Of a stretch of DNA of 41,476 nucleotides, positions 12,902 to 35,263 are shown one piece after another. A model generated the notes under the pieces. It had not been told where the DNA came from. It worked only from the letters and a program-made list of their open reading frames with translations, and made no database searches. The DNA lies in contig JAIKWY010000109.1 of assembly GCA_024684395.1 (NCBI GenBank), positions 1 to 41,476 of the forward strand. The letters are read 5' to 3'. Numbering within the stretch: the first letter of the stretch is position 1; each line of letters begins with the position of its first letter. The position numbers were made by a program, and so were the translations under genes. This DNA is from Oscillospiraceae bacterium (GTDB lineage Bacteria > Bacillota > Clostridia > Oscillospirales > Ruminococcaceae).

Positions 12902-15900
12902 TCAGGAAAGCAGCATCTTCTTGAACGCTGCCAAATCAAAGACATCGACCTCGCCGTTGCCGTCCATGTCGGCGATCGCAAACTGCTCCTCGTTGAAGCC
13001 GGCAAGACCGTGGATGTACTTCGTGAGGAGGATCAGGTCGAGCAGATCGCATTTGCCGTCGAAATTCAGGTCGCCCCGGAGCTCTCTCTCGGGTATGGCG
13101 ATGGCGATGCGGTCGATGGAGGGGCCGTCGCCCTGGTCGTTGTAGAGCTTGACGGTATTTACGCCGCCGGCAAGCTCCACATCAATATTGACAGCACGCA
13201 GACCCGTCCAGTCGCCCTTGTTGGCGTAGCAGTTGTCGATCTTCTGGACGAATTTGCCGTTGACATCGACCTTGAGGGAGCGGGGCTCACCGGAGATGTA
13301 GTAGATGCGCAGCGTGTACTTGCCTGCGGTGTCCACCCTCACATTCTCGAAGGTCACGCCGTTGCCTGCGCCGCCGACATAGCCGACGTATGCACCGCCG
13401 GAGCTGAACTTGCCGTCCTTGCCGCTGGTCACGGAGGACTTACCGGAGAGTTTAGCGTCCTCGGCTTCATAGTTGATGTAATTGGTGTAGGGCGTGGTGA
13501 GCTTCATGGAGCCGGGTGTCAGCTTGATGACGAAGCCGCCCTTATCCATGAGTTCCATGCTGATGGTATCCTCGGCGGTCAGCCCCTCCTGCACGGAGAC
13601 GTTCAGGTCGCTGCCGTTGTAATTGTCTGCAAAGATATAGGCGTTGTAGGTGCCCTCACCGATCAGATCGGAGAGCTTGATGTCCACATTGCGGGACTTG
13701 ATGGTCGAAGCGGCGATGTACCAGCTCTTGCCGCTTCTGCGGGCGGTGACGTTGAACTGCATCGGGTAGCCGTCCAGCACCTTCAGCTCATCCCATACCA
13801 CCGGAACGTCATTGAGCAGCGGGAGCGCGGAGGAATTCTCATAGGTGTAGACGGAATGCGCAAAGTGCTGGATGCCGGATTCGATGGTGACAACATCTGC
13901 CAAGGCAAAGCCAGCGGTCGCCTCACTGTTGTAGACACGGACGCCGGTCGGGGTGAAGTCTGCCGAGCCGACTACGTTTCTTGTGAAGGTGTAGGAGACG
14001 CGATTCTCGAGCGACGGGCTCGTGAACCACTTGTAGTACTCCGTGCCGTTGACTGCCTCATAGGAGACGATGTTCGGATAGGTGCGGCTCTCACCTCTCG
14101 GGATGGTGCAGCCGTGGAAGAGCACCATGAGCTTGTTCTTCGCCGCAATGTCGGCACACATGTGCATCTGGCGCATGGTCTCCTGCGTATCGCTCTCGTA
14201 GTAATCGACCTTCACGCCCTTGACGCCGATCCGGCTGATGCGCTCGAACTCACGGGTGATGGTCGCTTCATCCAGGAGCGAATAGTAGGGATATGCCGGG
14301 TTGCCCTTGCTGTCCTTATAGCCGTTATGACCCTTGTTGTTGACGCCGTACCAGAGGTAGATGCCGATGCCGCGCTCGGCGCCGTATTCGCAGAGCTCCT
14401 TGACCTTGTTCTCGGAATCGTCCCAGAGCGCCCAGCCGAAGTCAAGGCAGACGAAATCCCAGCCGTTCTCGGCGGCAAAGTCGATGTAGTCCTTCTGCGT
14501 ATGATACTCTACCGGAGAATCACCGCCGGACGACCACCACGACCATGCGGTCTTGCCGGGCTTCACCCAGCTGATGTCATCGAGCTTGTTCTCGGGGTTG
14601 AGGTTCATGATGAGGTCGCTGTTTGCCATGCCGTTGAGGTCATCGCCGATGATGACAGCACGCCACGGGGTGTGGAACGCCTTGGTGAAGCTGACATCCT
14701 CCTCCTTGACACCGAACTTCCACGAAAGTGCACGGCTGCCGCCCTCTGTCCGCAGACAGCCGGCGCAGTAGGGATCGTCCTCGTTGAAGACATTCGCCTC
14801 GGAGACAACGACCCAGCTATGACCGCCGACATGGCCGGTCAGCGGGCAGGAATAATCCGCCCAGGCATCGTTGATCTTCTGGGTGGTCAGCTCGACCATA
14901 TCCCATTCATATGTCGCATTGGGCCAGTTGCCCCAGAACGTGCTGCCGGTTGGGAAAATGATCTGGCTTGCCTCGGATTTGATGGCGGCGCCCTTGTTCA
15001 GGCTGTAGCGGAAGCCCACCCCGTCATCATAGACACGGAAGGTCACGGTCAGCGTGGTGCCGCCCTTTTGCAGCGGGAAGCTCATCTCGGTGCAGTGGTT
15101 GCGGATGTCGTGGTGCTTGCCGTAGGGCATGGAATAGCTCTCGTCGATCTCTGTCACGGTAGCGGTCGGCACCTCACCCGTGAAGCCGGAGGACAGATCC
15201 TCGGTCGTGGTGACGATGCCGAGCTGCGAGGGCTCGATGACCGTCTCGCCGCTGTCCTTGTGGACGGAGTAGTAGTAGCGGCTGCCGTCCGTCCAGAGCT
15301 TCGTCAGGAGCTTGCCGTCCGGGGATGCCGTGTAGAGCTCCGGGATGCTGGTGATGTTCGCACCGCCGAGGGTCTTGGCGGTCTCCTGCTCATAGACGGC
15401 AGGGGGCGCTTCCTCGAGGGTGTTTTCCTCGAAGGTATACAGGAATTCCGCATCATCCGGGAGATCCTTCACCTCCGCAGCCGAAAGCGCACGACGGTAG
15501 AGCGCCACATTGTCGATCCTGGCGCGGATGTCCTTGTCGGAATAGAGCGAGTGACCGATCGAGTTGTAGACATACGACTGGATCGTGTTCCCCTCAAACA
15601 GGCTCTTGGCCGTGTCGGAGATCGTGTCCGCTTCATAAGCGACCGACTTGCCGTCGATGTAATATGTCACACCGTCCGGCGAGCAGACCACCGTCATGGT
15701 GTGCCATGCGGTATCCGGCGCCGCATCGAGGTCGAAGATGGCGCGGTGCTTGTCGTCATTCTCAGTGGACTCGCCTGTCCCGGCAAAGACGCTTGCACGG
15801 AAGGCGGTCTTGTCCTTCACATCGACGGAGATGTCCGGCGAGGAATAGGACGGCGCATTGCCGCCGCCGAAGGGCACCGTGGCGAACTGGAACAAACGGG

Positions 15901-17340: not shown

Positions 17341-18780
17341 TTATCTCCTTGCGTAGATCACATCGCCGAGCATCAGGTCACGCTCGAGGGTGTAGGGCTT
17401 GGTGTCCTTGTCAATGACAACCAGCTCGATGCCCATGATGGCTGCGAAATCATGCACAGCCTGTGTGGTGATCTCGTAGGACAGCACCGTGTGATGTGCG
17501 CCGCCGGCAATGATCCAGCAGGTCAGACCGTCGAGGAAGGACGGCTCCGGGCGCCACATGGTACGTGCTACCGGGAGATTCGGCATATCCTGGAACGGCT
17601 TCTCGCAGGTCACATCCTGGGAGATGAGACGCAGTCTGCCGCCGATGTCGATCAGGGAGATCGCCTTTGCCTTGCCAGCCTTGCCCTCGAACACGATACG
17701 TGCCGGATCCTCCTTGCCGCCGATGCCGAGGTGATGCACCTCGATGCGGGGCTTGTCGGCTGCGATGCTCGGGCATACTTCGAGCATGTGGGAGCCGAGG
17801 ATCAGCTCGTGCTTGTAATCATAGGTGTAGTCCTCCATGAACGAGGTCGCACCGTCCGGATACATCGCCTTGATGATGGCGGTCATGCCGGCGGTCTTCC
17901 AGTCGCCCTCTGCGCCGAAGCCGTAGCCCTTGTGCATGAGGTGCTGGGAAGCCAGACCCGGAAGCTGCTTCATGCCGTGCAGATCCTGGAAGGTGTTGGA
18001 GAATGCCATAGCCCCCTCACGAACGAGGATCTTCTCGATAGCGATCTCCTCACGAGCCTGGTAGCGGATCGCCTCGGTGTCCTTCTCCTCGAAGGTGTAG
18101 AGCTTGGCATACTCTGCCATCAGAGCGTCGATCTCGGCCTCCGTGACCTTGTGCATCTCCTGAACGAGATCACCGACTGCCCAGGTGTTGACCTGCCAGC
18201 CGAGCTTGATCTGTGCCTCGACCTTATCGCCCTCGGTGACTGCTACCTCACGCATGTTGTCGCCGAAGCGGACGATCTTCAGGCTGCGGCTGAACTTGGC
18301 GCCGACGGCGGCACGCTGCCACTGTGCGATCTTCTCCTGCACGGCGGGATCCTTCCAGTAGCCTGCAACGACCGTTCTCGGGGCGCGGAGTCTGGCGCCG
18401 ATGAAGCCGTGCTCACGGTCGCCGTGGGCGGACTGGTGCAGGTTCATATAGTCCATATCAATGGCTTCGTTCGGGATGGTCTCGTTGAACTGCGTATGCA
18501 GATGCAGCCAGGGCTTCTGGAGGAGCGTCAGACCGTTGATCCACATCTTGGACGGCGAGAACGTATGGCAGAAGGTGATGATGCCGGCGCACTCCTCATC
18601 GTAGTTTGCCTCTCTGACGACCTTCTCGATCTCTGCCTCCGTCTTGGCGGTCAGCTTGTATTCCACCGGGAACGGCAGCTTGAGACCGTCCACGATGACC
18701 TTAGAATCCTCCTCGACCTGCCGGATCGTCTCCTCACCGTACAGGAACTGCGAGCCCGTGATAAACCAGAATTTTGCCAT
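17341..18780 (-). CDS. araA: L-arabinose isomerase
   Basis: A 479-residue cytoplasmic enzyme converting L-arabinose to L-ribulose, Mn2+-dependent. The sequence follows the AraA family end to end: FWFITGSQFLYGEET at the N-terminus, CHTFSPSKMWINGL, LHTQFNETIP, MDYMNLHQSAHGDREHG, then the catalytic region with a Glu in GAEGDWKTAG, EDYTYD, HMLEVCPSIA and GGAHHTVLSYE near the end. Length is normal for the family. The ATG at 18780 is preferred because an ATG three codons upstream touches the AAAGGA site. The kinase gene is upstream; the gap between them (18781-18905) holds a partial repeat copy. Confidence 0.97.
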   Translation of the reverse strand: MAKFWFITGSQFLYGEETIRQVEEDSKVIVDGLKLPFPVEYKLTAKTEAEIEKVVREANYDEECAGIITFCHTFSPSKMWINGLTLLQKPWLHLHTQFNETIPNEAIDMDYMNLHQSAHGDREHGFIGARLRAPRTVVAGYWKDPAVQEKIAQWQRAAVGAKFSRSLKIVRFGDNMREVAVTEGDKVEAQIKLGWQVNTWAVGDLVQEMHKVTEAEIDALMAEYAKLYTFEEKDTEAIRYQAREEIAIEKILVREGAMAFSNTFQDLHGMKQLPGLASQHLMHKGYGFGAEGDWKTAGMTAIIKAMYPDGATSFMEDYTYDYKHELILGSHMLEVCPSIAADKPRIEVHHLGIGGKEDPARIVFEGKAGKAKAISLIDIGGRLRLISQDVTCEKPFQDMPNLPVARTMWRPEPSFLDGLTCWIIAGGAHHTVLSYEITTQAVHDFAAIMGIELVVIDKDTKPYTLERDLMLGDVIYARR

Positions 18781-18853
18781 GTTGATCATTCCTTTCTTCA
18801 GGAAGCACTGATTTGATCGGTAATCCAGTACTCCGGGGATAGTAAAAGCGTTT

Positions 18854-18905: not shown

Positions 18906-20492
18906 TTAGATCTGTGCTGCCACACGTTCGGCAGCGATACCAGCCTGGTATTGTTTCATATAAGCAGCAAAGCCCTCCACATCCGCCTTTTCAGGCGAGA
19001 CCGTGCTGCCGTTCATGTCCTTGAATACATGGTTGCTGAGATAGTCCTGTAATGTCTGGGCTGTCGTTCTTTGTGTCATATACGCTGCAAGGAGCGCAAT
19101 GCCCCATGCGCCGCCCTCACCTGCCGACTGCATCAGCGTGATATCCGCACCGAGTGCGGCTGCCAGAATGCTCTGGCTCGGCACCGGATTCTTGAACAGA
19201 CCGCCGTGTGCATAGATGCGTTCGAGCTTGACCTGCTCCTCCTTCGTGAGGATGTCCATGCCGATGGCGAGCGTTGCCACCGTGCCATAGACAAGGCTGC
19301 GGGCAAGATCCTCTGCCGCAAAGCCCTTGTCGGGGCTGCGGAACAGGAGCGGCTTGCCGGCATCGAGCCCTGTCACCGGCTCACCGGCGTAATAGTTATA
19401 GGAGATGATGCCGCCGCAGTCCGGGGCGCCCTTTGCCGCCAGACCGTAGATCAGGTCGTAGAGCTGCGGCTTGGGCAGCTCCGTGCCCGCTGCTGCAAGT
19501 ACGCTGCCGAACAGCTTCACCCAGGCATCGAGGTCTGTGGTGCAGTTGTTGCAGTGTACCATCGCCACGGGAGCGCCGCAGGGAGTCGTCACGATGTCGA
19601 TCTCCCGGTGTACGGCTTTCAGGTTCTGTTCGAGCACGATCATCGCAAAGATGGATGTACCGGCGGAGACATTGCCTGTGCGGGGTGCGATGCTGTTGGT
19701 GGCTGCCATGCCGGTCTGCGCATCGCCCTCCGGCGGACAGAACGGAACGCCTGCCCGGAAAGTCCCGGTCGGGTCGAGGAGCTTTGCGCCCGCTTCGGTC
19801 AGCTTTCCGGCGCAGTCTCCCACGGGAACGATCTGCGGGAGGATGTCGGAGAGCTTCCTGGTGAAGCGTGTGCCCTGTGTCAGCTCGTCGAATTTCGCCG
19901 TCATAGCGGCATCGTAGTCACATGTCTGCGGGTCGATCGGGAAGATGCCCGATGCATCGCCGATGCCGATGACCTTTTCGCCGGTCAGCAGATAATGCAC
20001 ATAGCCGGCTAAAGTCGTCAGGAATGCGATCCGGTCGATATGCGGTTCGTCCTTCAGGATCGCCTGATAGAGATGGGCGATGCTCCAGCGCTGCGGGATG
20101 TTGAAGGAAAATGCCTCGGTGAGCTTGGCTGCCGCTTCCTCGGTCATGGTGTTGCGCCATGTCCGGAACGGCACCAGCTGCTCCCCTGCCTCGTCAAAGA
20201 CGAGATAGCCGTGCATCATTGCCGAGATGCCGAAGCCTGCGGTGGTCGTCAGCTTCTCGCCGTACTGTGCTTCCACATCCTGCATCAGGCTGCGGAAGCA
20301 ATCCTGCAAGCCCTCCTGCACCTCTGTGAGCGGGTACGTCCAGACGCCATCCGCCAGTGTGTTCTGCCAGTCGTGTACGCCCTGTGCGAGCGGGGTATGA
20401 TCCTCACCGATGAGGATCGCCTTGATGCGGGTGGAGCCAAGTTCAATGCCGATGCAGGTCTTGCCTGCACGGATCTGCTCTGTGACCGTCAT
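18906..20492 (-). CDS. araB: FGGY-family carbohydrate kinase, probable L-ribulokinase
   Basis: A 528-residue sugar kinase. The N-terminal phosphate-binding loop reads CIGIELGSTRIKAILI, and the C-terminal FGGY-type signature region is IYAHGGLFKNPVPSQSILAAALG followed by GEGGAWGIALLAAY. GISAMMHGYLVFD and RTWRNTMTEEAA fit substrate-site positions of ribulokinase and xylulokinase relatives. With araA next to it the expected substrate is L-ribulose, giving L-ribulose 5-phosphate. The protein is shorter than classical AraB (about 560 residues) and belongs to the variant clade often annotated only as FGGY kinase, so the substrate is inferred from context. Its start overlaps the permease stop (ATGA, 20489-20492). 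Confidence 0.85.
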   Translation of the reverse strand: MTVTEQIRAGKTCIGIELGSTRIKAILIGEDHTPLAQGVHDWQNTLADGVWTYPLTEVQEGLQDCFRSLMQDVEAQYGEKLTTTAGFGISAMMHGYLVFDEAGEQLVPFRTWRNTMTEEAAAKLTEAFSFNIPQRWSIAHLYQAILKDEPHIDRIAFLTTLAGYVHYLLTGEKVIGIGDASGIFPIDPQTCDYDAAMTAKFDELTQGTRFTRKLSDILPQIVPVGDCAGKLTEAGAKLLDPTGTFRAGVPFCPPEGDAQTGMAATNSIAPRTGNVSAGTSIFAMIVLEQNLKAVHREIDIVTTPCGAPVAMVHCNNCTTDLDAWVKLFGSVLAAAGTELPKPQLYDLIYGLAAKGAPDCGGIISYNYYAGEPVTGLDAGKPLLFRSPDKGFAAEDLARSLVYGTVATLAIGMDILTKEEQVKLERIYAHGGLFKNPVPSQSILAAALGADITLMQSAGEGGAWGIALLAAYMTQRTTAQTLQDYLSNHVFKDMNGSTVSPEKADVEGFAAYMKQYQAGIAAERVAAQI

Positions 20493-21571
20493 GTTACGCC
20501 CCCCTTTGGTACCTTTTCAGCTGCCGCAGATGCATTTGCCTTCTTGCGGCGTGCAATGATGACGCTCTGTACGACCAGGAAGATGCAGAGCATTGCGGCG
20601 ATCGTGATGCCGGTCCACCATGCCTGATCGAGTCCGACCGATGCCACGATGTTCTTAATGAGTTCGAGCGACAGTACGCCGAACAGCGTACCGATGATGT
20701 TGCCGACACCGCCGGTCAGCATCGTGCCGCCGATGATGGAAGCTGCAATGGCGTTCATCTCTGCGCCCATCGCATGGGACGGAGAGCCGGAGCCTACATG
20801 CATGAAGTAGACATAGCCGCCGATGCCCGCCAGCAGACCGCAGATCACATAGGAGGCGAAGGTCGTGCGCTTCACGTTGATGCCGAGCATCAGAGCGCTC
20901 TGCTTGTTGCCGCCGACTGCGTAGAAGTTTCTGCCGAGCTTTGTCCATTTGAGGACACAGAACAGCACGATGACGATCAGCAGCGCCACGATGACGCCGA
21001 TCTCGATGGTCGCCGGGATGTACTTGCCCTTTCTCGTATAGGAACCGAGCAGCGGAAGAACGATGCGGAAATCCTTGAGCGCCACGAAGCTCTCATTTTC
21101 CACATTGAAGGGATTCGTGTGGACGATGGTCGTCATGCCTCGTGCAAAGAACATGCCGGCGAGGGTGACGATGAACGGCTGCACGTTCAGGTAGGCGATC
21201 AGGTAGCCCTGCACCACGCCGAACGCCAGACCGATGCCGACTGCGATCAGCATGGAGACGAACACATTGCCGCCGCCCTGGTCGAGGTATACGGCACAGC
21301 ACATGGCAACGAGCGCCGTCACACCGCCGACGGAAATGTCGATGCCGCCGGTGATCATGACAAGGCTCATGCCGCAGGACAGGATGATCAGATACGCATT
21401 GGTGCTGATGAGATTCAGCATCTGCTGGGGTTTGCGGAAGCCCTCACCGAGGATCAGGATGGAAGCGATGTACATCACCAGGAATACGGCGATCGTAATG
21501 GTCGTCAGCAGGTTGGTGTCTGTCATGCGCTTGCCCGGATCCCGACGGAGGACATTGGGTAGATTCATCAT
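20489..21571 (-). CDS. yjfF: Sugar ABC transporter permease, YjfF-like
   Basis: A 360-residue membrane protein of the RbsC-type permease family (BPD_transp_2). It has about ten hydrophobic segments, the GGIDISVGGVTAL motif, and LNVQPFIVTLAGMFFARGM, a stretch characteristic of YjfF-type galactofuranose permeases. The coupling segment GINVKRTTFASYVICGLLAG and a hydrophilic Lys-rich C-terminus follow. GGAGGAATTATCT precedes the ATG. It pairs with the permease gene upstream to form a heterodimeric channel, and it is translationally coupled to the kinase downstream. The symbol is by analogy to ytfQRT-yjfF of E. coli; substrate specificity is inferred. Confidence 0.85.
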   Translation of the reverse strand: MMNLPNVLRRDPGKRMTDTNLLTTITIAVFLVMYIASILILGEGFRKPQQMLNLISTNAYLIILSCGMSLVMITGGIDISVGGVTALVAMCCAVYLDQGGGNVFVSMLIAVGIGLAFGVVQGYLIAYLNVQPFIVTLAGMFFARGMTTIVHTNPFNVENESFVALKDFRIVLPLLGSYTRKGKYIPATIEIGVIVALLIVIVLFCVLKWTKLGRNFYAVGGNKQSALMLGINVKRTTFASYVICGLLAGIGGYVYFMHVGSGSPSHAMGAEMNAIAASIIGGTMLTGGVGNIIGTLFGVLSLELIKNIVASVGLDQAWWTGITIAAMLCIFLVVQSVIIARRKKANASAAAEKVPKGGVT

Positions 21572-21591: not shown

Positions 21592-22674
21592 TCAGGTTTT
21601 TTCCGCCGATGCGCCGCCGTTGATCTTCTTGACGAGTGCCGAGAGCTTCTCTCTGACTGTCGGCGCACTCATCACAACGAGCAGGATGACAACCACTGCC
21701 TTATAGGCCGGCAGTGCTGCGGCGTTGACTTCAAATTTGTACAGTGTCGTCGTCAGGAACTGGATGACATAGGCACCGAGCACCGATGCAGCCATGTTGA
21801 ACTTGCCGCCGCTGAGGGCGTTGCCGCCGAGTGCGACTGCCAGGATGGCATCCATTTCGATGTCCTTGGCGATAACGGAATAGTTGATGGTGGAGATGCG
21901 GCTCACCTTGATGAGCGCTGCCACTGCGACGCAAAGACCGAGCAGCACATAGGTCAGGAGCTTGATGAGCTCAGGGTTCAGACCGTTCAGGCGGGAGGTC
22001 TTCTCGTTGATGCCGACAGACTGGACATAGAGCCCGAGCGTTGTGAATTTCAGCACGAGCCACGTCACCACAAAGCACACAATGGCAATGAGGAACGGTG
22101 CCGGTATCGGGATACCGGGGATGTAGTTGCCGTAGTAGCTGAAGCTCGGATCCTTGACGATCGGGAGCTCATTGTTGTTGATCCAGGCGGCGACAGAACG
22201 TCCGGCTGTGAACAGGATCAGCGTCGCGACCATCGGCTGTATCTTGAAATAGGCGACAAGCGCTCCGTTGAAGGCGCCGAAGAGCATCGAAACGATGCAG
22301 GCGATCACAAAAGCCACGATGATGGGTGCCTGCATTTCCTCGGAACGGCTGTCCGAGCCGCAGAGTACCCGCAGCAGCACGCTGCCGCTGATGGCGATGG
22401 CGGCGCCGACGGAAATATCCTGTCCGCCGGAGGCTGCGGTGACGAGTGTCATGCCGATGGCAAGGATCGCAAGCTCCGAGCCGCTGTCGATGATGGAGAT
22501 GAGCTGTCCGCTGAGGACGGGGTCGCCGTTGGCGTTGTCCTTCAGCGTGATGCGGAAGAAGGAGGGATCTGCGATCAGATTGAATAAAGCAAGCAGCAGC
22601 AAAGCTGCGATCGGGATCAGGATCTGATTGCGGGAGATCTGCTGCCAGATACCCGCCATTTTGTTATTCTGCAC
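21592..22674 (-). CDS. ytfT: Sugar ABC transporter permease, YtfT-like
   Basis: A 360-residue RbsC-type permease with AILAIGMTLVTAASGGQDISVGAAIAISG, FKIQPMVATLILFTAGRSVAAWINNNELP and a periplasmic-side GNYIPGIPIPAPF insertion as in YtfT. A GTG start at 22674 is preferred: AGGAGG lies 8 bases upstream at 22688-22683. The frame also holds a GTG at 22683, inside that site, and an ATG at 22659, too far from it. The start overlaps the ATPase stop (22664-22666) by a few codons, so translation is coupled. Forms the membrane part of the importer with the YjfF-like protein. Confidence 0.85.
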   Translation of the reverse strand: MQNNKMAGIWQQISRNQILIPIAALLLLALFNLIADPSFFRITLKDNANGDPVLSGQLISIIDSGSELAILAIGMTLVTAASGGQDISVGAAIAISGSVLLRVLCGSDSRSEEMQAPIIVAFVIACIVSMLFGAFNGALVAYFKIQPMVATLILFTAGRSVAAWINNNELPIVKDPSFSYYGNYIPGIPIPAPFLIAIVCFVVTWLVLKFTTLGLYVQSVGINEKTSRLNGLNPELIKLLTYVLLGLCVAVAALIKVSRISTINYSVIAKDIEMDAILAVALGGNALSGGKFNMAASVLGAYVIQFLTTTLYKFEVNAAALPAYKAVVVILLVVMSAPTVREKLSALVKKINGGASAEKT

Positions 22675-24184
22675 GGCTCTCACCTCCTGCGATGGTATTC
22701 ATAACGGCTGTCTGCGTGAGCTGGTCGCCGGTCAGTTCACCAACAAGCTTTCTGTCACGCATAACGAGCAGCCGCGAGCAGGTGCGGAGCATTTCGTCTG
22801 TTTCCGAGGAGATGAACGTGATGCTCATGCCCTCCGATGCCAGTTTCAGCACCAGCTTCTGGATCTCGACCTTGGTACCGACGTCGATGCCTCGTGTCGG
22901 TTCGTCGAGGATCAGGTATTTCGGATGGGTCAGAAGCCATCTGGCAAGGATGCACTTCTGCTGGTTGCCGCCGGACAACGAGCCGATCGGCGTGTTGACC
23001 GAAGCGGTCTTGATGTCGAGCAGCTTGATGTATTCATCGGCAAACTCGACTGCCTTTGCTCTGGAGAACGGCTTGAAGAAGCCGGTCTTGACCTGGAGCG
23101 CCAGGATGATGTTGTCCCGGACGGACAGATCCGCCACGATGCCGTCACGCTTTCTGTCCTCCGGCAGATACGCAATGCCGTGCTTCATCGCCTCACGGGG
23201 CGTGGTGATCTTGACGGTCATGCCGTCCATCATCACGGTGCCGCCGATGACTTTATCCGCACCGAAGATCGTGCGGACGCATTCGCTTCTGCCCGAACCG
23301 AGCAGACCGGTGAAGCCGTTGACCTCGCCCTTGCGGATCTTGAAGTTGAACGGGCTGATGCCCTCGGTGCTGCACAGTCCCCTGCCCTCGTAGACGGGAA
23401 CGCCGCCCTTGTCGGTGTATGCCGGTGCAGCCTCCTTGATGTCTGCCATGTCGTCGAGCTCCTTGCCGAGCATCTTGGAAACGAGCTGCACACGGGGCAG
23501 CGTCTCGATCTCGTACTCGCCGACGAGCGTGCCGTCACGGAGCACCGTGATACGGTCGCAGACCTCATAGACCTGGTCGAGGAAGTGTGTGACGAAGATG
23601 ATGCCAACGCCGTCATTTTTGAGCTTGCGCATCAGCTTGAAGAGCTTGGCGACCTCGGATTCATCGAGTGAGGAGGTCGGCTCATCAAGGATGAGCACGC
23701 TGCACTCCATGTCCACGGCTCTTGCGATGGCGACCATCTGCTGGACGGCGATGGAGCAGCTTGCAAGCTGCTGTGTGGCTTTTACGGCGATGCCGAGCGA
23801 ATCGAGCAGCTCCTGTGCTCTCGCATTCATGCTGCGCCACTTGATAAGGTGCCCGTCCCCTCTGCCGATGAAGATATTCTCGGCAACCGAGAGGTTCGGA
23901 CATAAGGAAATTTCCTGATAAACGGTGCTGATGCCGAGCTTCTGCGCCTCCTGCGGCGAATGGATCTGCACCGGACGCTCATGTCCTTTGAGCCAGATAT
24001 CGCCGTCATCCTTGGTATGAACGCCGGTCAGCACCTTGATCAGCGTGGATTTTCCGGCGCCGTTTTCCCCCATGAGGGCGTGTATCTCGCCCTTGCGCAG
24101 AGTGAAATCCACGTTCTGCAGCGCCTTGACACCCGGGAAGGACTTATAGATCCCCCGCAGCTCCAGCACGGAACCTTCACGCAT
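22664..24184 (-). CDS. ytfR: Sugar ABC transporter ATP-binding protein, YtfR/RbsA-like
   Basis: A 506-residue protein with two tandem nucleotide-binding domains. Domain 1 has Walker A GENGAGKST, a signature-like region SCSIAVQQMVAIARAV, Walker B SVLILDEPTSSLD and TVYQEISLCPNLSVAENIF. Domain 2 has the degenerate P-loop GLLGSGRSE usual for this family, the signature SLSGGNQQKCILARWL and Walker B YLILDEPTRGID. It energises uptake of a monosaccharide, here probably arabinose in furanose form. The start at 24184 is chosen for the GAGGTGATC Shine-Dalgarno 3 bases before it; longer readings from 24202 or 24223 have no such site. Separated from the binding-protein gene by a 340-base gap holding two repeat copies. 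Confidence 0.9.
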   Translation of the reverse strand: MREGSVLELRGIYKSFPGVKALQNVDFTLRKGEIHALMGENGAGKSTLIKVLTGVHTKDDGDIWLKGHERPVQIHSPQEAQKLGISTVYQEISLCPNLSVAENIFIGRGDGHLIKWRSMNARAQELLDSLGIAVKATQQLASCSIAVQQMVAIARAVDMECSVLILDEPTSSLDESEVAKLFKLMRKLKNDGVGIIFVTHFLDQVYEVCDRITVLRDGTLVGEYEIETLPRVQLVSKMLGKELDDMADIKEAAPAYTDKGGVPVYEGRGLCSTEGISPFNFKIRKGEVNGFTGLLGSGRSECVRTIFGADKVIGGTVMMDGMTVKITTPREAMKHGIAYLPEDRKRDGIVADLSVRDNIILALQVKTGFFKPFSRAKAVEFADEYIKLLDIKTASVNTPIGSLSGGNQQKCILARWLLTHPKYLILDEPTRGIDVGTKVEIQKLVLKLASEGMSITFISSETDEMLRTCSRLLVMRDRKLVGELTGDQLTQTAVMNTIAGGESRAE

Positions 24185-24235
24185 TTCGATCACCTCTGAC
24201 ATTGATAGTGTTAGGTATCTCAATTACCCCCTTCC

Positions 24236-24430: not shown

Positions 24431-24512
24431 CATTTCTTTTCTGCGAAAAGAAATGGCGTTGCTTGCGGGGCTTCGCCCCGTACCCCAGCCTCTGAAACTG
24501 TGTTTGCAGAGG
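24431..24512 (-). repeat. Three-hairpin repeat, family 2, copy C
   Basis: CATTTCTTTTC-TGC-GAAAAGAAATG (24431-24455), GCGGGGCTTCGCCCCGTACCCC (24466-24487) and CTCTGAAACTGTGTTTGCAGAG (24490-24511). It lies directly after the binding-protein gene. In this position such hairpins commonly protect upstream mRNA and reduce read-through, giving more binding protein than ATPase; that role is inference. Confidence 0.8.
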
Positions 24513-24524
24513 CGCCAGTCATGA

Positions 24525-25529
24525 TCAGATGCCGTAATTGTTTACATCATCCTGGGTGATGGTCGTTGCATCGAAGCCCTTCTCGTTCATGATGATGGTC
24601 TTCTGGGAGAGCTTCTCGCCGTTCTCCAGCTTCTGGATAACGTCCTTGATGTACTCGGACTGGAACGGGTTGCACTGACCGTCATAGTTCCAGTTCTGGT
24701 TGAGCAGCTCCTCGAGTGCCCACTTGTTGCAGTCGAAGCCCATTACGATGACATCCTTGCCAACGCCGTGGGAGATGTTTGCCTTGTCGAGTGCAGCAAC
24801 AGCGCCCTTTGCCATGTCGTCGTTCTCAGCGTAGATAACGTTGAAGGACTTGCCGGAGTCGATAACGGACTGTACGATCTGCTGCGCCTTCTCAGCGTTC
24901 CACTCAGCGGTCTGCTCTGCTACGATCGTCCACTTGGAAGAATCAGCCTCAGCTGCTGCGGTGAGCGCACCAGAGCGGCCCTTCTATGCAGCGGAGCCCA
25001 TAACGCCCTGGATGTGGATGACTTCATACTAGTCGAGGTTCTGGCTCTTGAGCCAGTCAACAGCGGTCTGACCCTCCTTGTCCATATCGGAAACGATGGA
25101 AGCCTCATACAGGCTCTCGTCAGCGTCTACGGTACGGTCGAACAGGATGACCTTCACGCCTGCGTTCTGTGCTTCCTTCAGGACGCCGTCCCAGCCTGCG
25201 GTATCCGCAGCGGAGAGCAGGAGGTAATCCACCTCGTCCTGGATGAACTTCTGTGCATGGGTGATCTGCTCGTCGTTCTTCAGGCTGTAAGCGAAGGATG
25301 CGTCAAAGCCGTTCTCCTTGGTGAAGGTCGCCTTGAGATCCTTGTCGTTGGCAGTACGGTAGCCGGACTCGTTCGGGTCGTTGTTGATGATGCCGACCTT
25401 GATGAGATCGCCGGACTTCGCAGCACCGCCGCCGCTGGAGCTACCGCCGCCATTGGTGGCACAGCCGGTCAGCATTGCAGCACAGACGATCGTAGAGATC
25501 ACGACAGCAAGAAGCTTCTTCATTTTCAT
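24525..25529 (-). pseudogene. ytfQ: Sugar-binding lipoprotein of the ABC importer (YtfQ-like), interrupted by two in-frame UAG codons
   Basis: The extracellular binding protein of the importer, in one continuous frame of 334 codons. The lipoprotein signal MKMKKLLAVVISTIVCAAMLTGC gives lipidated Cys at residue 23, followed by a GGGSSSGGG linker and a periplasmic-binding-protein fold of the galactofuranose/ribose type. The start at 25529 follows GGAGG with 7 bases spacing. Two TAG codons break the frame: 25031-25029, after WLKSQNLD, and 24986-24984, after QGVMGSAA. The reading frame is kept before, between and after them, and there is no other damage. Aligning to relatives with QGTTGSSAQ at this place, the second stop replaces Gln; both are one C-to-T change from CAG. 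Either a recent pseudogene, an assembly error, or read-through. The full fold runs to NNYGI at the end. Confidence 0.8.
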
Positions 25530-25919: not shown

Positions 25920-26654
25920 TCATAATACACTTTGCTGTACGACATTTGCAGTGTTTTTGTACTGGCGGGGCGTCTTTCCGGTGTACTTCTTGAAGATCTG
26001 GCTGAAATAGCGGTAGTCCTGGAAACCGACCTCGTAGGCGATCTCGTAGACCATCTTGGACGTGCAGCACAGAAGCTGCTTGGAGCGGTCGATCCGCACC
26101 ATGTTCAGATATTCGGAGAAGCAGTGACCCGTCTTTTTCTTGAACAGGGCACTGAAATAGCTCGGACTCAGACCGATCTCGTGTGCGATGCAGTTGAGCG
26201 TCAGATCCTCCCGCATGTAATTCTTGTCGATGAAGCGGATCGCATTCCGGATCACGCCTGCACGGCTGTCTCCGACGGCTTCGATCCGCCAGCGGATGCA
26301 CTGCTCGAAGATGCCGTAGAGGTAGGCTGCCGTTCCCTCGATCGTGACGAGGTGCTGTTCCAGATCCTCCGGCTGTCCGAACTGTGCCGTGAATGTGCTG
26401 TCGCTGATGCCCAGCTCCCCCGCAAAGTTGCGGGCGGTCAGGTAAATGTCCGTGCTGATGTAGATACGCAGCACCAGCGAACTCAGCTTCCAGAAGCCAA
26501 ACGCCTCCAGGAGCTTGTCAAAATCCTCCTTGCAATGCTCCAGACCGGAGCTCCGGAGCATGTGCTCCAGCTGTTGAATGTCCGGCTTCCTTACTGTGCA
26601 GAACCCCTCTGCAGAAGACTGTTGTATCATCCCCGCACCCCCATGATCATGCAT
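25920..26654 (-). CDS. AraC-family transcriptional regulator
   Basis: A 244-residue protein. The C-terminal 100 residues contain both helix-turn-helix units of the AraC family: LTLNCIAHEIGLSPSYFSALFKKKTGHCFSEYLNMVRIDRSKQLL and VYEIAYEVGFQDYRYFSQIFKKYTGKTPRQYK. The N-terminal 140 residues look like the linker half of YesN-type response regulators (LEHMLRSSGLEHCKEDFDKLLEAF...LYGIFEQCIRWR), but no receiver domain is present. It may therefore be a response regulator that lost its receiver, or a stand-alone form. Its start has only a weak GGGG site; ATG at 26630 is an alternative. Being directly upstream of the importer, it may act on the weak promoter there. Confidence 0.85.
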   Translation of the reverse strand: MHDHGGAGMIQQSSAEGFCTVRKPDIQQLEHMLRSSGLEHCKEDFDKLLEAFGFWKLSSLVLRIYISTDIYLTARNFAGELGISDSTFTAQFGQPEDLEQHLVTIEGTAAYLYGIFEQCIRWRIEAVGDSRAGVIRNAIRFIDKNYMREDLTLNCIAHEIGLSPSYFSALFKKKTGHCFSEYLNMVRIDRSKQLLCCTSKMVYEIAYEVGFQDYRYFSQIFKKYTGKTPRQYKNTANVVQQSVL

Positions 26655-26836: not shown

Positions 26837-27919
26837 TTACAGTTTTTTGACAGAACTGCGGACGATCAGCTCCGGTACGATGATCTCATCCCTCTGCTCC
26901 GATGAACGGTGCTCCATCATACCGATCAGTTTTCTTGCCGCAGCTTTCCCCAATTCGCTGTGAGGATGGTGTACCGTTGTCAGCGGCACCTCACAGATCG
27001 AAGCATAACGTGAATCATCGATGCCGACTACGGACAGATCGTCCGGCACCCGGATCCCGTTTTCCTTGCAGAATTTCAGCAGGTTGACAGCGAGCTTGTC
27101 ATTGTAGCAGACAACTGCCGTCGAGCGCTTGAGCAGTTCGAGCAGCTTATCCTTGGCGTAGTCAAAGATGCTGTTCCGGTCGGAGGTCGCAAACCAGAAG
27201 ACATTGCGCTCCGAGAACGGGATGTTGTGCGCAAGGCAGCTCTCCATATAGCCGCTGTAGCGCAGATGTCCCTGGATGTCGTCGAGTACGAACATGCCGG
27301 CGATGCTCCTGTGACCGCAGCCGATCAGGTAATCCGTCACGACCTTGCCCGCCGCCTTGTCATCCATCGCAACACACGGATAATTGCCCCACGGATACTT
27401 GGCGTTGAAGAACACCAGCGGGACGCCGCCGTCATGGAGCTCCTTGTACAGTGCGATGTTCGGATTCGGCAGCGCACTCTTGGACGGCTCCACGATCAGA
27501 CCGCAGACGCCGGAGGACAACATGCTCTCCAGTGCCTTGGTCTCTTCGAGCACCTGGTTGTGTGTGATGGATAGCTGCATCGTATAGCCGGCATCCCCCA
27601 AAACGCTCTCGATACCGGTCATGATGTGCGGGAAGATGTAGTCGCTGAAATAGGTCGAGATCACGCCTACGCTTTTCTGGTTCAGCGGTGCCTGCTGTAC
27701 CACGGGCTTTTCGCAGATGAACGTGCCGTTGCCACGTACACGGCTGATGATGTTCTCCTGTTCGAGATGCATCATCGCCTGTCTGACGGTCTGACGGCTG
27801 ACGCCGTGGATCTCACAGAGCTGTTTCTCCGTCAGGAAGCGGTCGTTCGGCTGGAGTCCCTCCGAGGATATATAATCCTTGACCCAATCCACGATCGCCA
27901 TATACTTATAATTATTCAT
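26837..27919 (-). CDS. araR: AraR-type arabinose repressor (GntR HTH with LacI-type sensor)
   Basis: A 360-residue regulator. Residues 1-75 form a GntR-type winged helix (FLTEKQLCEIHGVSRQTVRQAMMHLEQENIISRVRGNGTFI). Residues 80-360 form a LacI/GalR-type sugar-binding domain (SVGVISTYFSDYIFPHIMTGIESVLGDAGY, FNAKYPWGNYPCVAMDDKAAGKVVTDYLIGCGHRSIAG, DDLSVVGIDDSRYASICEVPLTTVHHP). This chimeric build is the hallmark of Firmicute AraR, which leaves DNA when it binds L-arabinose. Boxes of the AraR type in its own promoter imply autoregulation. The ATG at 27919 overlaps the stop of a three-codon upstream frame. Confidence 0.92.
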   Translation of the reverse strand: MNNYKYMAIVDWVKDYISSEGLQPNDRFLTEKQLCEIHGVSRQTVRQAMMHLEQENIISRVRGNGTFICEKPVVQQAPLNQKSVGVISTYFSDYIFPHIMTGIESVLGDAGYTMQLSITHNQVLEETKALESMLSSGVCGLIVEPSKSALPNPNIALYKELHDGGVPLVFFNAKYPWGNYPCVAMDDKAAGKVVTDYLIGCGHRSIAGMFVLDDIQGHLRYSGYMESCLAHNIPFSERNVFWFATSDRNSIFDYAKDKLLELLKRSTAVVCYNDKLAVNLLKFCKENGIRVPDDLSVVGIDDSRYASICEVPLTTVHHPHSELGKAAARKLIGMMEHRSSEQRDEIIVPELIVRSSVKKL

Positions 27920-28235: not shown

Positions 28236-28309
28236 TGGAGGCGCCAGCCGGATTTGAACCGGCGATCATGGTGTTGCAGACCAACGCCTTACCACTTGGC
28301 TATAGCGCC
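28236..28309 (-). tRNA. tRNA-Cys (GCA)
   Basis: 74 bases including an encoded CCA. Acceptor GGCGCTA/TGGCGCC, anticodon loop CTGCAAC with anticodon GCA, T-loop GGTTCGAATCC. Confidence 0.95.
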
Positions 28310-28313
28310 ATAT

Positions 28314-28389
28314 TGGAGCGGATTACGAGGCTCGAACTCGCTACCTCCACCTTGGCAAGGTGGCGCTCTACCAGATGAGCTAAATCCGC
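28314..28389 (-). tRNA. tRNA-Gly (GCC)
   Basis: 76 bases including CCA. Acceptor GCGGATT/AATCCGC, anticodon loop TTGCCAA with anticodon GCC, T-loop AGTTCGAGCCT. Confidence 0.95.
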
Positions 28390-28394
28390 AAATA

Positions 28395-28468
28395 CGACCC
28401 GGATGAGACTCGAACTCACGACCTCCGCCGTGACAGGGCGGCGTTCTAACCAACTGAACTACCGGGCC
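28395..28468 (-). tRNA. tRNA-Asp (GTC)
   Basis: Acceptor GGCCCGG/CCGGGTC with discriminator G, anticodon loop CTGTCAC with anticodon GTC, T-loop AGTTCGAGTCT. Unlike its three neighbours, no CCA is encoded after the discriminator (TAT follows), so CCA must be added enzymatically. Confidence 0.93.
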
Positions 28469-28470
28469 AT

Positions 28471-28546
28471 TGGTGGGGACTATAGGGCTCGAACCTATGA
28501 CCCTCTGCTTGTAAGGCAGATGCTCTCCCAGCTGAGCTAAACCCCC
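28471..28546 (-). tRNA. tRNA-Val (TAC)
   Basis: 76 bases including CCA. Acceptor GGGGGTT/AGTCCCC, anticodon loop CTTACAA with anticodon TAC, T-loop GGTTCGAGCCC. First gene of the tRNA operon. Confidence 0.95.
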
Positions 28547-34674: not shown

Positions 34675-35178
34675 CTACATTCTTGAAAATATAAAAGCCA
34701 ATATCAAGCAGCATATCAGCATAAAAACACTTTGTCCGAGATGCTGTTTCCGGTTATATCCGAATTGCTGCCAACCTGCGCAGCCCTTGGTTTCGGGGAA
34801 GAAATGGGGAAAGAAATTCGTTTTTGTCAGCAGGAAATAATCCAGAGCGATGATATCAACTGCCTTTACGCCGAAAGCGATCATCAGAAACCGCAGCAGA
34901 TACTGACTGTATGTAAAATCATGATGCATTCCGTCAATGCCGCCGATAATGAACACAGCAATAAACAGCAAAAACATCATAATGATAAGGATACCGCCGA
35001 AAATCCTTGGCGCTTTGGGCAGTCTGTCAATTTCATCAAGCCGAGGTCTCAGTGCTTCCTGCACATCCTTCGGGAAGTTCTTTGCAAATCCACGATACGG
35101 CATAAATACAGTTGCTGTCAGTATCATCAGGCACAGCAGGATACTATTGCAGAGTGTCAACAGCAGTGTCATAAGCAT
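34675..35178 (-). CDS. Membrane protein paralogue 3 of 3
   Basis: A 167-residue protein with four spans, FPKDVQE after the first and KAVDIIALDYFLL in the third, then a loop with FFPHFFPETKGCAGW. Clearly related to its two downstream neighbours but strongly diverged. ATG at 35178 is chosen because GAGG lies 9 bases upstream; a TTG at 35187 overlaps the site. It ends in TAG, the only annotated gene in the window that does, and that codon lies in the next ribosome site. Confidence 0.7.
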   Translation of the reverse strand: MLMTLLLTLCNSILLCLMILTATVFMPYRGFAKNFPKDVQEALRPRLDEIDRLPKAPRIFGGILIIMMFLLFIAVFIIGGIDGMHHDFTYSQYLLRFLMIAFGVKAVDIIALDYFLLTKTNFFPHFFPETKGCAGWQQFGYNRKQHLGQSVFMLICCLILAFIFSRM

Positions 35179-35263
35179 GATGATCAACCTCTTTATCGTA
35201 TGTTAGCTTGACAGCAAGCGGAATGAGTACAGTCTTCCGCATATCTCCGGGTTTTAGTTCCAT
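35144..35263 (-). CDS. Possible 39-residue protein
   Basis: MELKPGDMRKTVLIPLAVKL and 19 more residues, with AAGGAG 8 bases before the ATG. It overlaps the start of paralogue 3 by 35 bases in another frame. It may be a coupling leader, or the severed front of a gene damaged by the same rearrangement as the neighbouring chimera. No family recognised. Confidence 0.4.
   Translation of the reverse strand: MELKPGDMRKTVLIPLAVKLTYDKEVDHHAYDTAVDTLQ

Follow-up and report, generated by a model that had tools for sequence, protein, structure and literature searches.

PMC10191376 describes GafABCD furanose importers and how these are linked to arabinose genes; its title names the Shewanella system as essential for growth on L-arabinose. 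Many of the Gaf clusters outlined in that report are linked to genes for L-arabinose isomerase and a kinase, and the same linkage is found at the operon from an Oscillospiraceae bacterium that we analyzed here. Characterized GafA proteins (YtfQ, 2vk2; Shewanella GafA, 5ocp; Mycobacterium smegmatis MSMEG_1712, 6hbm) are the best matches by sequence, and among the best by fold, of the binding protein encoded in this operon. In contrast to GafA, the gene at this locus carries two nonsense codons; the YtfQ score is below the cut-off, and identity to GafA structures is ~25–28%.

The gene shares with ordinary pseudogenes its stops in an otherwise conserved frame and its intact relatives, and internal stops in conserved frames are likewise seen in bacterial stop codon reassignment. 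According to the introduction of PMC8629427 (2021), all bacterial code changes known at that time reassign UGA, whereas the codon concerned here is UAG, for which we found no supporting evidence of reassignment. In the same study, Shulgina and Eddy describe how in-frame stops in pseudogenes gave rise to false inferences of stop recoding in yeasts. Among the titles and abstract openings listed for the literature on reassigned stop codons and on UAG decoding in nature, we found no comparable bacterial case, which is not proof that there is none.

Two amber codons in a putative furanose importer operon

The window, that is the whole stretch of DNA analyzed, comprises 41,476 nucleotides and represents the complete contig C205 of a draft genome of 4.21 Mb in 225 contigs, with an estimated contamination of 4.26%. 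Downstream of the binding-protein gene it contains genes for an ATPase, two permeases, an FGGY kinase and an L-arabinose isomerase, all of them open frames (Table 1).

Table 1 Features of the importer operon and its upstream regulators (positions in the window)
Feature	Position	Strand	Remarks
GafA/YtfQ-related furanose-binding lipoprotein gene	24525..25529	(-)	334 codons and native TGA end; broken by two TAG codons
Premature TAG 1	25029..25031	(-)	Codon 167; Lys (AAG) in five same-genus orthologs; mostly Glu, Lys or Ser, never Gln, in 81 relatives
Premature TAG 2	24984..24986	(-)	Codon 182; Gln (CAG) in 81 of 81 relatives
Sugar ABC transporter ATPase (YtfR-like)	22664..24187	(-)	Intact frame
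Permease 1 (YtfT-like)	21592..22683	(-)	Intact frame
Permease 2 (YjfF-like)	20489..21571	(-)	Intact frame
FGGY sugar kinase	18906..20492	(-)	Intact frame
L-arabinose isomerase	17341..18789	(-)	Above NCBIfam cut-off; intact frame
AraC-type regulator	25920..26654	(-)	Upstream of binding-protein gene; intact frame
GntR/LacI-type regulator	26837..27919	(-)	Upstream of binding-protein gene; intact frame

The initial annotation had placed two in-frame TAG codons in the binding-protein gene, at 25031–25029 and 24986–24984, and both are present there in a single frame. As it had also stated, this frame is kept and both ends of the protein are complete: the gene has 334 codons and ends at its native TGA, the N-terminus bears a lipoprotein-type signal (by eye), and the Peripla_BP_4 domain (residues 46–280) runs through both stops. 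Apart from the two stops, the frame is undamaged. The TAG codons, 45 nucleotides apart, are clean substitutions that differ in kind (A/T and C/T), and there are no indels nearby.

The proposed identity of the system as an arabinose/furanose importer finds support in relatives, fold and operon, with equivalog cut-offs not being reached. By sequence, the solved structures nearest to the binding protein are 6hb0, 6hbd, 6hyh, 5ocp and 2vk2, all of the GafA/YtfQ furanose-binding group. For the model of the intact ortholog in the closest relative (genome G005), the top two Foldseek matches were 5ocp and 6hbm, with ribose-binding proteins close behind; the identity given above refers to fold alignments of this ortholog to GafA structures. 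The NCBIfam equivalog model of YtfQ scored 116 bits with the binding protein (cut-off 510). Judged by its sequence, the protein is a relative of YtfQ and not the E. coli equivalog, and it is related to the arabinofuranose/galactofuranose-binding proteins GafA and YtfQ, with L-arabinofuranose or D-galactofuranose as putative ligand. The best models for the three transporter neighbors were YtfR, YtfT and YjfF, all scoring under their equivalog cut-offs. Among 80 named relative loci (the best 80 of at least 396), the ATPase gene was present in 79 and the two permease genes in 75 and 74, respectively.

A second close copy of the binding-protein gene was not found in the genome at E 1e-3, which leaves it as a single copy, and the broad Peripla_BP_4 family has 15 further matches. 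An AraD-like epimerase is encoded elsewhere, on contig C135, with 351 bits against a curated cut-off of 389. Between the binding-protein and ATPase genes lies a hairpin sequence (24431–24458; 11-base perfect arms, by eye), which has one near-copy in the genome with a single mismatch (C82:92680). A cluster of four tRNA genes (Val-Asp-Gly-Cys) is located at 28236–28546; the same set occurs on contig C21, and a Val-Asp-Phe-Gly set on contig C26. The window also harbors GH9-dockerin, GH97-dockerin and GH10 genes. Dockerin domain matches in the whole genome number at least 149, suggesting a very large cellulosome-type repertoire, and the bacterium is a degrader of plant fiber that probably lives in the gut.

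Ancestral residues at the stop sites and the reading of UAG

The same-genus search covered 38 genomes including this one, with an ortholog threshold of E 1e-60. Orthologs were found in six genomes, and none of the five from the 37 others contains a stop; all five have AAG at site 1 and CAG at site 2. Relatives in named genomes numbered at least 396, of which the best 80 were compared. Four of the five same-genus orthologs were also among these 80, and together with the ortholog from genome G021 the comparison comprised 81 genes. An internal stop occurred in none of the 81 (best 80 of at least 396 plus the G021 ortholog), a sampling in which broken copies may rank lower and be under-represented. 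At site 1, the relatives carry Glu (42), Lys (24), Ser (9), Asp (2), Ala (2), Gly (1) or Thr (1), and Gln in no case. At site 2, all 81 have Gln encoded by CAG, in agreement with the earlier remark that relatives carry Gln at this position. The accompanying claim that both stops are one transition away from CAG therefore holds for site 2 and fails for site 1, where Gln is absent from all 81 relatives and AAG is the codon in the same-genus orthologs. The gene thus shows what would be expected of a nonsense pseudogene, namely intact orthologs, stops seen in this genome only and a frame that is otherwise homologous.

Internal stops in other genes of the genome were sought with four domain families, which gave 249 matches (Peripla_BP_4 16, ABC_tran 70, BPD_transp_1 14, dockerin 149; with 150 of 312 dockerin candidates scored, the last number means at least 149). 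Within the matched stretches, to which this search applies, stops were present in two genes only. One is the binding-protein gene, flagged in the whole-genome search with two TAG codons inside; the other is an ABC ATPase gene on contig C188 (L169:14761-15531, G000:C188) with one in-frame TAG at 15190. By eye, this ATPase gene adjoins a large permease gene and a two-component pair. The comparison at its TAG site included 11 homologues, among them a paralogue from this genome; seven have Glu there and four have Asp. In addition, 618,708 bases were screened by coding score for stops flanked on either side by coding-like sequence, which yielded 24 stops (9 TGA, 8 TAA and 7 TAG). Five of these were judged by eye to interrupt genes, namely the two in the binding-protein gene, the C188 stop at 15190, and two stops, TAG and TGA, that lie 72 bases apart in one frame on contig C22 (L171:17478-17552; G000:C22:37478-37552), a frame that looks ricin-lectin-like by eye. 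The other 19, also sorted by eye, were set aside as neighboring same-frame genes or antisense frames.

All three stops inside family matches are TAG, and this looked suggestive of a TAG excess. The idea was dropped because the codons of seven window genes (six operon genes and the GH97 gene) predict that 66–69% of single-base nonsense changes give TAG, and three of three would be expected ~30% of the time. In the binding-protein gene itself the share is ~78%, and both stops would then be TAG ~61% of the time. With this codon usage, nonsense changes lead to TAG more often than to any other stop, and finding TAG at both sites is what would be expected.

The initial annotation had considered that UAG might be decoded as Gln by a suppressor tRNA. 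Decoding as Gln, or as another residue, would yield a full-length protein, and it would accommodate the kept frame, its conservation beyond both stops, the invariant Gln at site 2 and the fact that all stops inside domain matches are TAG. Against this stand the ancestral residues at the three TAG sites, which fall into three classes (Lys/Glu/Ser, Gln and Asp/Glu) and thus argue against any single decoding; Gln in particular is contradicted by its absence at site 1 in 81 relatives and by Asp or Glu at the C188 site in 11 of 11 homologues. Release factor RF1 is present (540 bits; cut-off 423), and TAG serves as a terminator. In ~241 kb sampled, 173 frames ended in TAA (81), TGA (76) or TAG (16, the broken frame included), and coding-like sequence followed the stop in 1 of 16 TAG, 13 of 81 TAA and 5 of 76 TGA cases, which shows no excess for TAG. 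The stop usage noted earlier for the window was recovered as well: the 29 frames kept by a simple caller end in TAA (14), TGA (13) or TAG (2), the last two being the broken binding-protein frame itself and 34675–35187. The three-of-three TAG pattern, as set out above, is an unremarkable outcome of codon usage, and the broken C22 frame has a TGA beside its TAG.

Rfam marked 49 tRNA-like places in the genome, 46 of which were named by ARAGORN; by eye, the remaining three are a Gln(CTG) tRNA, a cut Trp(CCA) tRNA and one without a CTA triplet. No anticodon CTA occurs among the 46 tRNAs read, in a set that lacks Ile, Asn, Glu and His and therefore looks incomplete, so that a CTA tRNA could be missed and its absence is not proof. 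A pyrrolysine system was rejected, with PylS reaching only 28.5 bits in this genome (cut-off 178); weak matches of this type were also obtained in 13 of 14 control genomes, and one exceeded the cut-off. Taken together, recoding of UAG is not supported and the genetic code looks unchanged here. We regard decoding by a suppressor tRNA as very improbable. The same applies to a variant in which a natural amber suppressor, overlooked because the tRNA set of the draft looks incomplete, inserts one amino acid at some of the UAG codons where the position tolerates it; the binding-protein and C188 ATPase genes would then be functional and constrained, with UAG still ending other genes, and this, too, is scarcely credible.

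Probable recent inactivation or possible sequence error

The explanation that fits best is the one first proposed as a fresh pseudogene in a live operon, with stops in this genome only (none in 81 relatives), intact neighbors and few other changes. We thus consider the gene to be probably a recently inactivated allele of a GafA-like binding protein belonging to an ABC importer of the L-arabinofuranose/galactofuranose type. Compared to ordinary pseudogenes, it would be very young and shows little other decay.

Relative to G005, the binding-protein gene has a dN of 0.022 and a dS of 0.234 (ratio 0.095) and no frameshift. For the five further genes with full or nearly full coverage, the dN/dS ratios ranged from 0.015 to 0.061, and a kinase fragment of 102 codons gave 0.135. 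No frameshift was seen in the operon genes compared with G005, in which the kinase gene is cut and the isomerase gene is missing. Besides the stops and two indel codons, 11–13 codons encode different amino acids, depending on the alignment. By a rough estimate, free drift over half of the G005 branch would have produced ~90 non-synonymous changes, which indicates that the gene was under selection until recently. Of 13 differing codons, one is clearly charged to G005 and five fall in a block where G005 and another genome, G013, are very alike.

Nonsense changes make up ~4% of protein-changing mutations, and two of them would normally be accompanied by ~45 missense changes. With at most 12 codons, perhaps two to seven, chargeable to the present lineage, the probability of two or more nonsense changes is ~0.01–0.12. 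Slow drift after a first stop is thus somewhat unlikely, and the scarcity of missense changes leaves room for two changes close in time or for an artefact.

The latter would mean that the TAG codons are base-call or assembly errors, or stem from a collapsed minority strain, and that the gene in the cell is intact. A draft genome with the estimated contamination given above, two nonsense changes 45 nucleotides apart with few others in the gene, and intact, constrained operon neighbors would all be consistent with such an error. However, the changes are clean substitutions of two kinds in a stretch free of indels, frameshifts are absent from the operon genes for which a G005 counterpart was compared, and stops inside the matched stretch affected only two genes among the 249 four-family matches; by that measure, the assembly is not generally noisy. 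An artefact is less likely than a recent inactivation but is the main rival to it, and we infer that the base calls are right.

Divergence from G005 is locally raised just past the stops, with 15 differences per 90 nucleotides in codons 169–198 vs. 2–6 per 90 in the other full blocks. G005 and G013 differ from each other at 4 of 90 nucleotides in the same codons, and blocks with 4–6 differences occur elsewhere in the gene too. Their orthologs (L086 and L087) are much alike over codons ~140–228 (4–6 differences per 90 nucleotides), where local gene exchange has possibly taken place. It is only suggestive that exchange between G005 and G013, rather than a fault in the present genome, lies behind the local divergence. 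The AraC gene of G013 contains an in-frame stop near its C-terminus, which is unremarkable.

Predicted consequences for furanose uptake

If the recently inactivated allele is real, translation would stop at codon 167 and yield a lipoprotein consisting of lobe 1 only. In the fold predicted by AlphaFold for the intact G005 ortholog (mean pLDDT 80; numbering two lower), stop 1 corresponds to the start of strand 166–173 and stop 2 lies inside helix 177–193; in our reading of the model, lobe 2 begins at these sites. Where two stops follow one another, read-through past both would be very small. With a second TAG present and lobe 2 lost, leaky read-through would be predicted to supply practically no working protein.

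One might suppose that fragments still work, for example in sensing, either as the 166-residue lobe-1 lipoprotein, which has an intact N-terminal part up to the first stop, or as the product of an internal restart past codon 182. In type I binding proteins, the sugar is enclosed between two lobes that close on it. The lobe-1 product would lack lobe 2 according to our reading of the model, and a restart product would have no signal peptide, which makes working fragments highly unlikely. The truncated protein of the inactivated allele would accordingly be inactive, and the transport phenotype predicted for the strain is that the ATPase and permeases, although intact, are left without their cognate binding protein and the importer is inactive or nearly so. 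The kinase and isomerase would then depend on sugar entering another way, and one of the other Peripla_BP_4 family members may act as a substitute binding protein.

In summary, the gene has the appearance of an ordinary one that was broken recently, or else of a sequence error. What seemed to be a signal of recoding was cleanly refuted at this locus, since the two TAG codons supposed to stand for Gln occupy positions with different ancestral residues. Provided that the allele is real, the strain is predicted to keep the genes for arabinose catabolism without a dedicated importer.
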